This document shows, one piece after another, positions 20,352 through 24,601 of a stretch of DNA of 64,000 bases. Every line of letters begins with the position of its first letter. Position 1 is the stretch's first letter. The DNA comes from Gemmatimonadales bacterium (GTDB taxonomy: Bacteria; Gemmatimonadota; Gemmatimonadetes; Gemmatimonadales; GWC2-71-9): assembly GCA_036500345.1 (NCBI GenBank), contig DASYCE010000008.1:62001-126000 (forward strand). The letters are read 5' to 3'. The notes beneath the pieces were generated by a model. The model ran no database searches. It worked only from the letters and a program-made list of their open reading frames with translations, and was not told the DNA's origin. A program made the translations under genes and the position numbers.

Positions 20352-21674
20352 TCACTCCGCCCCGTCGGGCGCGGGCGGACCCGGCACGTCGCGGACCACG
20401 ACGGTCTGCACCCGCCGGCCGTCCATCGCGACGATCTCGAACCGGTGATTGCCGATGGTGACGCTGTCGCCATTGGCCGGCAGGCGCCCCAGCTGTCCGA
20501 AGAGGTAGCCGCCGATCGTGGTGTAGTCGGTGTCGTCGAGCTCGGCCTGGAATCGCGCATTGAAATCGCTGACCGGGAGTGCTCCGGGAATGCGCGTCGC
20601 GCCATCGCTGGTCACGCGCGACATCTGCCGCACCGGATCATGCTCGTCGTAGATCTCGCCGACGATTTCTTCCAGCAGGTCTTCCATCGTCACCAGTCCG
20701 GCGGTCCCGCCGTACTCGTCGAGGACCACGGCGAGATGACTCTTCAGCCGCTTCATGTCCGCCAGCACATCCTCGACCTCGCGTGTGCCGGGAACGAAGA
20801 GCGGTTCGCGCAGGATCGTGCCGACCATCGCCGACGGCGTGTCCCGCAGTGCGCGCAGGATGTCCTTCGCGTGCACCACGCCGACGATCTCGTCGAGTGA
20901 ATCGCGATAGACGGGATAGCGGGACCGGCCGGCACGGGCGACGACATCGGCGGCGTCGGCCACCGTCATGTCGGCTTCGATCGTCACCATTTCGGTCCGG
21001 GGCGTCATCACTTCTTCGGCGCTCTTCTCGCTGAATTCAAAGACCCCTTCGAGCAGCCGCGCGTCGCTCGCTTCGAGTGCGCCCGATTCTCCCGAATGTT
21101 CCACCAGCAACCGGATCTCCTCGGGGGAGTGGAGCGGTTCGCGCTCCGAGAGCGGCTGGAGTCCCAGCAGCAGGACAAGCCGGTTGGCCGACCGGCGCAG
21201 CAACGCGATCGGATAGTGCATCACCCAGGCGAAGCCGAGGAGCGGTGGCGCGAGCCAGCATGCCACCAGTTCGGCGTGCAGCAGCGCGATCGCCTTCGGC
21301 ACCAGTTCTCCGAGGAGAATGTGCAGCACGGTGATCAGGGTGAACGCCACCGCGACCGCGACGCCGTGTGTGGCGATCTTCGCGGCCGCGGGCGGCAGGG
21401 CCGCGAAGAAGGTCGCGAACATCCGTGCCACGGCTGGTTCGCCGACGGAACCCAGGCCGAGGGACGCCAGCGTGATCCCCAGCTGGGTGGCGGAGATCAC
21501 GCGGTCGAGGGATTGGACCGCCCGGAGCGCCAGCGTAGCTTTGCGATTACCGCCGCCCGCCATCTCTTCGAGGCGGGTCTTTCGCGCAGAGACCAGCGCG
21601 AACTCCGCGGCGACGAAGAAGGCATTCGCCACGACGAGTGCGAGGACGACGATGACGCCGAAGCCGGTGGACAT
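20352..21674 (-). CDS. CorC/HlyC-type CNNM membrane protein with CBS pair
   Basis: A 440-residue protein with the usual three parts: an N-terminal DUF21 membrane domain of about four helices (residues 1-150), a CBS pair (about 200-320, including SRYPVYRDSLDEIVGVV and LDEYGGTAGLVTMEDLLEE) and a C-terminal CorC_HlyC domain (about 350-440). Such proteins take part in Mg2+/Co2+ homeostasis. The ATG at 21674 precedes the first helix, and TAACCT lies eight bases upstream, suggesting a leaderless transcript. Its start codon shares the CATG at 21672-21675 with the divergent CDF gene. Confidence 0.88.
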   Translation of the reverse strand: MSTGFGVIVVLALVVANAFFVAAEFALVSARKTRLEEMAGGGNRKATLALRAVQSLDRVISATQLGITLASLGLGSVGEPAVARMFATFFAALPPAAAKIATHGVAVAVAFTLITVLHILLGELVPKAIALLHAELVACWLAPPLLGFAWVMHYPIALLRRSANRLVLLLGLQPLSEREPLHSPEEIRLLVEHSGESGALEASDARLLEGVFEFSEKSAEEVMTPRTEMVTIEADMTVADAADVVARAGRSRYPVYRDSLDEIVGVVHAKDILRALRDTPSAMVGTILREPLFVPGTREVEDVLADMKRLKSHLAVVLDEYGGTAGLVTMEDLLEEIVGEIYDEHDPVRQMSRVTSDGATRIPGALPVSDFNARFQAELDDTDYTTIGGYLFGQLGRLPANGDSVTIGNHRFEIVAMDGRRVQTVVVRDVPGPPAPDGAE

Positions 21675-22641
21675 GGCCCAGAAGGTTAGCAGCCCGAGTC
21701 CGATCCCGCGCAAGATCGCGATCGTCCTTGCGCTGACCGCGGCGTTCACCGTGGTCGAGATCGCCGGCTCGTTGATGAGCAACTCGCTCACGCTGCTCGC
21801 CGACGCCTCGCACATGGGGACCGACGTCGCGGCGCTCGCCCTGGCACTCGTCGGTGCCCGCATCGCCCAGCGGCGCGAAGGCCCCGCGCAGCACTTCGGC
21901 AACCTCCGCTGGGAAGTGCTCGCCGCGATGATGAACGGCCTGGCGCTGTTCGTGATCGGCATCCTGATCACCGTCGAAGCCATCGATCGCTTCGGACACC
22001 CGCGCGCCATCAACGCCGTCCTCTTCGGCGGCGTCGCCGCAGCGGGGCTGCTCGTCAACCTCCTCTCGCTGCGCGTGCTGCACGGCCATCACGAAGAGAA
22101 CCTCAACGCGCGCGGTGCCTACCTCCACATTCTTGGCGACGTCCTCGGATCCGTCGGCGCGATCGTCGGCGCGATCGTGATCCACTACACCGGGTGGACG
22201 CGCGTCGATCCGATCATCTCGGTGCTCGTCTCGGTCATCATCCTCCGCAGCGCCTGGCGGCTGGTCCGGACCAGCGGGCTGATTCTCCTCGACCGGGTTC
22301 CCGACCACCTCCAGCCGGCGCGCGTCGAGGCGGCGATGATGGCAGTCCAGGGCGTCACGCGCGTGCACGACCTGCACGTCTGGACCGTCGCCAGCGGGCT
22401 CATCGCGATGAGCGCCCACGCGGTGGCACCCGACCTCGACGCCCACCCGGCGATCCTGCGCCGCCTCGAACAGGCGATGGGAGGGATGGGGATCCGGCAC
22501 GTCACGATCCAGCTCGAAACCGGTGACGAATGTGTCGGGGAACTGTGCGGCGATGATGACGGTTCTGCCGACACGCTCATGCTGGATCACGGGCACGGGC
22601 ACAGCCACACGCACGGGCACCCCCACGGTCACGTCCATTAG
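21673..22641 (+). CDS. Cation diffusion facilitator (zinc/cobalt/cadmium exporter, CzcD type)
   Basis: A 322-residue CDF transporter with six membrane helices. Metal-site motifs HxxxD are seen as the LADASHMGTD pair in helix II (near residue 40) and HILGDVLGSVGA in helix V (near 153). A cytoplasmic CDF dimerisation domain follows from about 215. The C-terminus ends in a His/Gly-rich tail (alternating HGH units) suited to Zn2+ or Co2+ binding. The ATG at 21673 has the best fit to the first helix, but upstream in-frame ATG 21652 and GTG 21667 remain possible because no ribosome site favours any of them. Confidence 0.88.
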   Translation: MAQKVSSPSPIPRKIAIVLALTAAFTVVEIAGSLMSNSLTLLADASHMGTDVAALALALVGARIAQRREGPAQHFGNLRWEVLAAMMNGLALFVIGILITVEAIDRFGHPRAINAVLFGGVAAAGLLVNLLSLRVLHGHHEENLNARGAYLHILGDVLGSVGAIVGAIVIHYTGWTRVDPIISVLVSVIILRSAWRLVRTSGLILLDRVPDHLQPARVEAAMMAVQGVTRVHDLHVWTVASGLIAMSAHAVAPDLDAHPAILRRLEQAMGGMGIRHVTIQLETGDECVGELCGDDDGSADTLMLDHGHGHSHTHGHPHGHVH

Positions 22642-22744
22642 CGGCTTGCCGCGGGGGTAGGCGGGGTCTATATATGCGCCCCGGTCCCGAGGGGTATCGC
22701 GCCCGAAGGACCGGGGCGTTGACACAAAACGAACTGAGAACACA

Positions 22745-24601
22745 TTGCCGATCCGCAACATCGCCATCATCGCCCACGTCGATCACGGCAAGACGACGCT
22801 GGTTGATCAGATGCTTCGCCAGGCAGGCGCCTTCCGTGCCAATCAGCACGTGGAGGAGCGGGTCATGGATTCCAACCCGCTCGAGCGCGAGCGGGGCATC
22901 ACCATTCTCGCCAAGAACACCTCGGTGCAATGGGGCGGGACCAAGATCAACATCGTCGATACGCCGGGTCACGCCGATTTCGGCGGTGAAGTCGAACGGA
23001 TTCTCCGGATGGTCGATGGGGTGCTGATCCTGGTCGATGCCGCCGAAGGTCCGATGCCGCAGACGCGCTTCGTCACCCGCAAGGCACTCGCCCTCGGGCT
23101 CCAGCCGATCGTCGCGATCAACAAGATCGACCGCGGCGACGCCGAGCCGCTCCGGGTGCACGACGAAGTGCTGAGCCTCTTCCTCGACCTCGAAGCGACC
23201 GACAAGCAGCTCGAATGCCCGTTCCTCTACACCTCGAGCCGGGCCGGTACCGCGACCCTCGAACTCGACCATCCGGGAACCAACCTCGAGCCGCTCTTCC
23301 AGGCGATTCTCGACACCGTCCCGGCGCCGACCGGCGATCCTGAAAAGCCGTTCCAGATGCTGGTGTCGACCCTCGACTTCTCGAGCTTCCTCGGGCGCAT
23401 CGCGATCGGGCGGATCGAGCGGGGCCGTCTCGCCGCTGGCGACCAGGTGACCCTCCTTCCGATGGGCGCCCCGGGGATGGTCAGCGCCGAAGAGCCTGGC
23501 GTCGAACGTGGGCGTGTTACCAAGCTCTACACCTTCGACGGACTCCACCGCGTCGAGACGGCGTCGGTCGACGCCGGCGATATCGTCGCCCTCTCGGGAT
23601 TCGAAACGATCGAGATCGGGAAGACCTTCACGGCTCCCGACTATCCCGAGCGGCTCGAAGGGATCGCGGTCGAGGAACCGACGATTTCGGTTGATTTCAT
23701 CGTCAACAATTCGCCGTTCGCCGGACGCGAGGGGAAGTACGTCACCTCCCGGCAGCTGCGGGACCGCCTCTTCAAGGAACTCGAGCGCAACGTGGCGCTC
23801 CGGGTCGAAGAGACCGATTCCCCCGACACCCACACCGTCTCGGGACGCGGCGAGCTTCACCTCGGCATCCTGATGGAGACGATGCGGCGCGAAGGCTACG
23901 AATTCCAGGTGTCGCGTCCCCGGGTGATTCTGCGCGAAGGCGAGAACGGCGAGCGGCTCGAGCCGTACGAGGAACTCACGATCGACGTCGCCGAGTCGTT
24001 CATGGGCGTGGTGATGGAGAAACTCGGTCCGCGGCGTTCGGAAATGCTGGAGATGCGGAATCCGGGTCAGGGAATGGTGCGGATCACCTTCAAGATTCCG
24101 GCACGTGGCCTGTTCGGGTACCGGTCGGAGTTCCTGACCGACTCGCGCGGCACCGGGATCATGCACCACCGCTTCCTCGAATACGGGCCGTGGGCTGGGC
24201 CGTTGAGCGGCAGGAAGCGCGGGGTGATGATTGCTGACCGCGAGGCGCCGGTGGTGGCGTTTGCACTGGGGAACCTGCAGGAGCGGGCGCAGATGTTCGT
24301 CGCTCCGGGTGAACAGGTGTACGAGGGGATGATCGTGGGTGAGAGTGCCCGTCCCGGCGACATGGACGTCAATGTCGGGAAGGAAAAGAAACTCACCAAC
24401 ATGCGGACCACGGCGTCCGACGATCACATCCTCCTCGAACCACCGCGGGAGATCACCCTGGAGTACGCGCTGGAGTACATCGAAGAGGACGAACTGATCG
24501 AGGTTACGCCCGAAAATATCCGGCTCCGCAAGCGGGTGTTGCAGGCGACCGAACGGAAGAAGGCCCAGCGTGCGGCGAACCGGGTCGCCGACGCATCTTG
24601 A
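22745..24601 (+). CDS. typA: Ribosome-associated GTPase TypA/BipA
   Basis: A 618-residue translational GTPase that binds the 70S ribosome and is needed for growth under stress or cold. G1 is [10 protein letters not shown] at residues 11-20, G3 [12 protein letters not shown] near 75 and G4 NKIDRGDAE near 128. The BipA-specific C-terminal region contains [17 protein letters not shown] and ends with [11 protein letters not shown]. The start is TTG at 22745; no ATG or GTG gives the required N-terminal strand. A 9-bp inverted repeat (22679-22687 with 22708-22716) lies in its leader. Confidence 0.96.

Follow-up and report, generated by a model that had tools for sequence, protein, structure and literature searches.

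Introduction

Excludons, as described from Listeria, are loci with remarkably long antisense RNAs that run over several genes, and the same source distinguishes alongside them a separate class, the 'overlapping 5'UTR' (PMC4179725). The locus treated here, a corC-like gene and a divergent gene for a CDF metal exporter in a Gemmatimonadales bacterium, resembles an excludon in that each predicted transcript would be both the mRNA of its own gene and antisense to the divergent neighbour. It differs in that the predicted overlap is 126-147 nt, confined to the 5' ends, and both promoters would lie in coding sequence; in scale, the overlapping 5'UTR class of that description comes closest to it.

Leaderless genes carry a TA-like signal whose first T stands around 12 bp ahead of the start codon and which takes the form TANNNT in GC-rich groups (PMC3160421); the string 'Gemmatimon' does not occur in the main text of that paper. 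The predicted corC box is comparable, its first T lying 14 bases before the ATG, but unlike the boxes described there it also encodes part of the opposite gene.

Divergent overlaps make up 331 of 14,958 cases in 58 prokaryote species (summed from a table in PMC2174442), a shortage that has been attributed to the need for upstream regulatory elements, and 5'-5' overlaps have been explained by 5' elongation of a gene to a new start (PMC2174442, PMC2716372). The corC/CDF pair would be a 5'-5' overlap of this kind, with two differences from those accounts: the new start of the CDF gene would have been reached through the promoter of its neighbour, and the promoter of the lengthened gene would itself lie inside corC. 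Bidirectional promoters, described as pseudo-symmetrical shared sites (PMC12825309, PMC10268837), likewise drive divergent transcription from closely linked elements, whereas corC and CDF would have two separate promoters, pointing towards each other at a distance of about 126 bp. A symmetric bidirectional promoter is ruled out at this locus because the predicted -10 elements, at 21536-21541 on the plus strand and 21683-21688 on the minus strand, do not overlap. Our literature search found no paper treating such an arrangement, as judged by title or abstract.

Gene content and spacing of the locus

The window is the whole stretch of 64,000 nucleotides analysed, taken from contig DASYCE010000008.1, and it was compared within a sample of 101 genomes, made up of the window genome (G000) and 100 relatives. 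Three genes are concerned:

20352-21674, minus strand: corC-like gene with CNNM/DUF21, two CBS and CorC_HlyC domains (Pfam); ATG start at 21674
21652-22641, plus strand: CDF metal exporter gene with Cation_efflux and ZT_dimer domains (Pfam); preferred start ATG 21652, alternatives GTG 21667 and ATG 21673
22745-24601, plus strand: typA/bipA (Pfam), the next gene downstream

The Pfam domains agree with the identities given to the first two genes in the initial annotation. The corC product has the CNNM domain, CBS pair and CorC_HlyC domain of the CNNM/CorC family, and the exporter has both domains of the CDF family, from which metal export is predicted.

A corC match was present in 98 of the 101 genomes and a CDF match in 93. 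The survey of the pair covered 99 corC places from the 98 genomes and, for CDF, the top-scoring place in each of 82 of the 93; in the 11 omitted (G025, G031, G043, G056, G060, G069, G082, G086, G091, G094 and G095) the best CDF match had an E value of 6e-14 or weaker and was taken as another CDF paralogue. The two genes formed a divergent pair on one contig in 68 genomes. Estimated between aligned first codons, the spacing was -2 bp in G000 and G009 only (2 of 68 pairs), 19 bp in G001 and G008, and up to 344 bp in others; a further 15 pairs were 1.3-1.5 kb apart, and all 15 had hisD (histidinol dehydrogenase) in between. The zero spacing is thus a local feature, whereas many members of the order share the divergent layout.

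The intervening hisD is seen, for example, in G004, G005, G007, L036 and L096. In G043 and G026, which yielded no CDF pair, corC likewise has hisD as a neighbour; the genus members G001, G002, G003 and G006 have a distant hisD elsewhere, with 40-43% identity, and a hisD query gave no match in the window genome. In 10 sampled genomes with neither CDF nor hisD at this place, the divergent partner of corC is typA.

A probable leaderless start for corC

Two minus-strand elements precede the corC start codon:

21683-21688, minus strand: TAACCT, -10 element of the predicted leaderless corC promoter, supported by the boxes of relatives
21708-21714, minus strand: CTTGCGC, weak candidate for the -35 region of the corC promoter, picked out by eye

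The start was examined in 64 of the 68 divergent pairs, G012, G013, G021 and G052 being omitted as having a CDF locus without a corC match. All in-frame start codons lying 17-31 codons ahead of a fixed anchor were considered, and TANNNT was sought at each distance from them; several candidate starts were scored per locus, and each genome was counted once per distance. In 54 of the 64 loci an in-frame corC start codon was preceded by TANNNT at a distance of 5-12 nt. Distances of 6, 7, 8 and 9 nt were represented by 16, 6, 12 and 15 genomes, other distances from 0 to 40 by at most 4 each. This is the mark of a leaderless gene, a -10 TANNNT ending a few nucleotides before the start codon, and in the window the box ends 8 nt before ATG 21674. 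The proposal in the initial annotation that TAACCT, eight bases before the minus-strand ATG, is the corC -10 element is therefore very probably correct.

Two further comparisons bear on the position and role of the box. In several relative loci the reading frame is closed just upstream, so the corC start must sit there. In G002 the box is kept and its TAG stops the CDF frame, so that the stretch no longer encodes CDF; the box is therefore not retained merely for encoding CDF. The window genome at large (about 794 kb, 1347 candidate starts) has a peak of TANNNT 5-8 nt upstream of candidate starts, with 13, 18, 21 and 7 cases, and 48 of 73 of its boxes have T as the fifth base, a position that played no part in their selection. 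Counting against a promoter reading, TTG is hardly enriched upstream of these boxes; also on the negative side, a crude gene finder blind to relatives placed the corC start at 21815 rather than 21674. On balance, corC is very probably leaderless, and its start at 21674 is well supported.

The agreement among loci at the position of CTTGCGC was only moderate, no base exceeding 0.58 at any of the seven positions. In several loci of family f1 the TANNNT box of corC is preceded, at about 20 bp, by CTCTCGC or CTCGC, at the place of CTTGCGC here, and several loci of family f2 have GCTGGCG at the place of that block. The CTCTCGC/CTCGC block is possibly a -35 or an activator site.

A conserved promoter candidate within corC

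A second candidate promoter lies on the plus strand, entirely within corC:

21513-21518, plus strand: TTGGAC, predicted -35 of the CDF promoter, within corC codons 53-54
21536-21541, plus strand: TAGCTT, predicted -10 of the CDF promoter, within corC codons 45-47

The site as a whole is TTGGAC-N17-TAGCTT (21513-21541), with the general form TTG-N20-TANNNT. All 10 members of the genus have TTGGA and TAGCTT without variation, the last base of TTGGAC differing in 2 of the 10. With the corC codons placed side by side, those at the site are fixed in the genus and vary not even synonymously (AAA for K, GCT for A, CAA for Q), and codon 47 always begins with A, though it encodes T, M, R or I. These codons are rare in the window genome, with synonym shares of 4.2% for GCT, 10.9% for CAA and 8.7% for AAA. 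The same codons stood out in an unselected scan of third bases over all 49 family members with a CDF or hisD partner, which we preferred to a hand-picked set of 37: codons 54, 46 and 45 had the highest A/T share among 125 corC columns (0.84, 0.80 and 0.59, against a mean of 0.15). The codon alignment comprised 93 genomes, leaving out G033, G044 and G093 (paralogue-level), G072 (partial) and G097.

Presence of the site across the family depended on the divergent partner. The motif was defined after inspection of the genus, a full site being CAA at codon 54 together with TANNNT across codons 45-47. So defined, the site was found in 38 of the 49 sampled family members with a CDF or hisD partner, and 11 were without the full site. 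By partner, it was present in 20 of 26 members with CDF at 140 bp or less, 2 of 6 with CDF farther away and 16 of 17 with hisD; in the same family it was present in none of 6 with typA and in 1 of 2 with an unknown partner. The Fisher value for this dependence was 0.0008, with unknown partners counted as none and kinship ignored. At the corresponding place in two other families the site was found in 0 of 31 and 0 of 5 genomes (0 of 36). The hisD and typA labels had first been set by spacing or translated frames, and tblastn confirmed all 17 of the former and all 10 of the latter. On a poorly supported tree of 130 columns the typA label changes five times and is scattered among site-bearing genomes, so that loss of the plus site probably happened several times. 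Both the plus site and the corC box could be read in 43 family members, of which 25 had both, 7 the plus site only, 11 the corC box only and none neither.

A different codon is conspicuous in family f2: of its 17 genomes with CDF, 14 use AAT at corC codon 55, while the mean A/T share at third bases is only 0.15. It is not callable as a promoter, because the typA-partnered genomes G069, G071 and G078 also carry AAT.

By eye, each hexamer of the plus site matches the E. coli consensus at three of six positions, and a strict sigma-70 scan with that consensus (TTGACA/TATAAT) gave no match; the case for a promoter therefore rests on conservation and on the spacing preferred by the genome itself. 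In 794 kb of the window genome, the spacing of TTG to TANNTT peaks at 19 (7 sites) and 20 (11 sites), other spacings from 14 to 27 having 1-6 each. Ten of these 18 sites are followed within 160 nt by a predicted start on their own strand, compared with 7.7% of random places. The site inside corC is among the ten when counted with the start at 21652, and the other eight are farther from starts or inside genes. The plus site thus has its hexamers at the genome's own spacing, as a housekeeping-type promoter would. The sequence TAGCTTTG bears what we take to be a resemblance to the TAnnTTTG element of Bacteroidetes.

Conservation alone is silent on what reads the site. Codons 45-54 might instead be kept for the structure of the corC mRNA, as a protein-binding site or for codon effects on corC translation, and some other corC codons, such as 67, are likewise well conserved. 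Such a role seems improbable to us, because the conserved letters make up hexamers at the promoter spacing of this genome, because the site is missing in all six family members with divergent typA, and because neither an Rfam match better than chance nor an inverted repeat of at least 8 was found there. The plus site is, then, probably the promoter of the CDF exporter gene. This predicted promoter is older than the zero spacing of the pair, and most sampled family members retain it, with CDF and with hisD as the downstream gene alike.

A riboswitch or other known RNA in the CDF leader was ruled out, the sole overlapping Rfam match having an E value of 3.4, far below the gathering score. Operator-like inverted repeats of at least 8 within 30 bp were likewise absent from 21480-21760.

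The start of the CDF gene

The 5' end of the CDF gene contains two sequences that bear on its start:

21672-21675, both strands: CATG, the corC start codon on the minus strand and probably an internal CDF Met codon on the plus strand; ATA in G009, G001 and G008
21642-21646, plus strand: GAGGA, Shine-Dalgarno-like, five bases before ATG 21652, in all four genomes G000, G009, G001 and G008

The initial annotation had centred on the CATG, as a start codon shared by the two genes. The CATG is indeed present and contained in both reading frames, with an in-frame ATG on each strand: that of the plus strand (21673-21675) is in frame with the CDF ORF, which ends at 22641, and that of the minus strand, at 21674, with corC, which ends at 20352. 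The further claim that CDF translation starts at 21673 did not hold up, since the three closest relatives, G009, G001 and G008, have ATA at the corresponding place. The palindrome carries no information of its own, because a two-base overlap of divergent ATGs always spells CATG; with the plus-strand ATG unconserved, CATG as a signal per se is ruled out, and the apparent sharing of a start codon is probably due to chance. The better finding at this locus would be the conserved putative promoter in corC, facing that of corC itself.

The place of 21652 is the sole in-frame start common to G000, G009, G001 and G008, where it reads ATG, ATG, GTG and GTG, respectively. A start at 21652 had been named in advance as the result that would tell against 21673, and the comparison favours it, the start itself being an inference. 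GAGGA adds weak evidence, because it is partly dictated by Val-Leu codons of corC. In the six other genus members (G002-G007) CDF begins with M/V-x-R-K or close to that; in the four genomes the codon at this place is ATC or GTC, and the usual start is therefore lost. Taken together, these observations make ATG 21652 a reasonably probable start, preferred over 21667 and 21673.

Were CDF translation to begin at ATG 21673 or GTG 21667, through initiation of a leaderless or an unstructured kind, the genes would just touch or overlap by 8 bp. Both codons are in the CDF frame, and G009 and G008 have ATG at the equivalent of 21667, but G001 has no start codon there, the equivalent of 21673 is the ATA noted above, and in G000 neither codon has a Shine-Dalgarno-like word (of the set listed) or a TANNNT 3-12 nt upstream. 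We consider these starts a possible but lesser candidate than 21652. CDF as a leaderless gene was rejected for the window altogether, none of four candidate starts having a TANNNT 3-12 nt before it.

With 21652 as the only start position that all four genomes have in common, a gene overlap of 23 bp is probable. The initial annotation had described them as having no intergenic space; the ORFs do abut at the CATG, and the genes themselves probably go further and overlap. Relatedly, in G087 and G089, of another family, the nearest in-frame CDF start is 23 bp inside corC, so that 5' overlaps of this kind probably have more than one origin.

Probable facing promoters

Together, these results make it likely that corC and CDF are divergent genes with overlapping 5' ends and two promoters that face each other. 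Each promoter would then lie inside the coding sequence of the neighbour, as the initial annotation had supposed; comparison across relatives supports this as probable. The minus promoter, with its -10 at TAACCT, would lie within the CDF coding sequence and yield a leaderless corC mRNA from about 21674, the start being set at the ATG. The plus promoter, in corC codons 45-54, would start transcription at about 21549, set 7 nt past the -10. The CDF mRNA would then be translated most likely from ATG 21652, behind a leader some 100 nt long that runs antisense to the start of corC. Because the plus -10 ends 110 bp before that ATG, inside corC, the two promoters would face each other. The resulting region is:

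21549-21674, both strands: stretch that two working promoters would transcribe from both strands, a predicted 5' overlap of 126 nt

The facing distance, and with it the predicted RNA overlap, comes to 126 nt at this locus; across the 19 loci measurable for both sites without indels it ranges from 126 to 147 nt. In the clade of G000, G009, G001 and G008, the old CDF start near M-x-R-K would have been lost and the gene extended across the corC promoter as far as a start within corC.

Two facing promoters about 126 bp apart would give complementary 5' RNA ends in an excludon-like layout. Polymerases would converge, and each would then pass through the other promoter. Competition for one site is not expected, because the estimated polymerase footprints (about 21513-21569 and 21654-21714) do not overlap. 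Mutual exclusion through polymerase collision, promoter occlusion or antisense pairing is possible. Were the arrangement a switch under selection, activity of the exporter promoter would silence the CNNM protein by sending polymerase and antisense RNA over the corC start, and the reverse; metal export and CorC function would not be on together, and the same switch would be re-used for hisD in part of the family. A dedicated metal switch is disfavoured, because hisD would use the same promoter, and we think selection for a switch unlikely.

The overlap may equally be a neutral outcome of spacing changes and loss of the old CDF start, the promoters acting independently with no meaningful cross-regulation, and to this we give an even chance. 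The spacing of the genes varies freely, from -2 to 344 bp or with hisD in between; hisD, which would share the plus promoter with CDF, is not known to have a role in metal export; and neither a riboswitch (Rfam) nor an operator-like repeat (21480-21760) was found. Against it stands the near constancy of the facing distance in the 19 measurable loci, although this would follow as well from both promoters holding fixed places.

The locus would offer a clean, testable case of a promoter kept by selection within the coding sequence of another gene, and it comes with a natural control: the plus site is usually retained alongside its predicted target gene (38 of 49) and is missing when typA stands in place of that gene (0 of 6). 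It also suggests that divergent genes without a spacer need not be mis-annotated, since the upstream elements are here predicted to be kept inside the neighbour. Two neighbouring metal-handling genes of this member of the Gemmatimonadota would thus have their apparent on-switches inside each other's coding sequence.

Promoter-like elements elsewhere

The two kinds of site suggest a promoter grammar for Gemmatimonadota, composed of TTG-N20-TANNTT and the leaderless TANNNT; a literature search on this phylum brought up no paper that is, by its title, a start-site map. Among 77 predicted divergent pairs in 794 kb of the window genome, two overlap, corC/CDF and one on contig C7, where a minus-strand gene at 112417-114318 and a plus-strand gene at 114082-115428 have a predicted divergent overlap of 237 bp. 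The start of that plus-strand gene may be later and the overlap false, because a plus-strand TTG-N20-TANNTT with a predicted start at 114371 lies inside the gene. Downstream of CDF, at about 22665-22680, CTATATATGCGCC or close variants of it recur before typA in G006, G041, G055 and others, and this sequence looks like a conserved promoter-like element.
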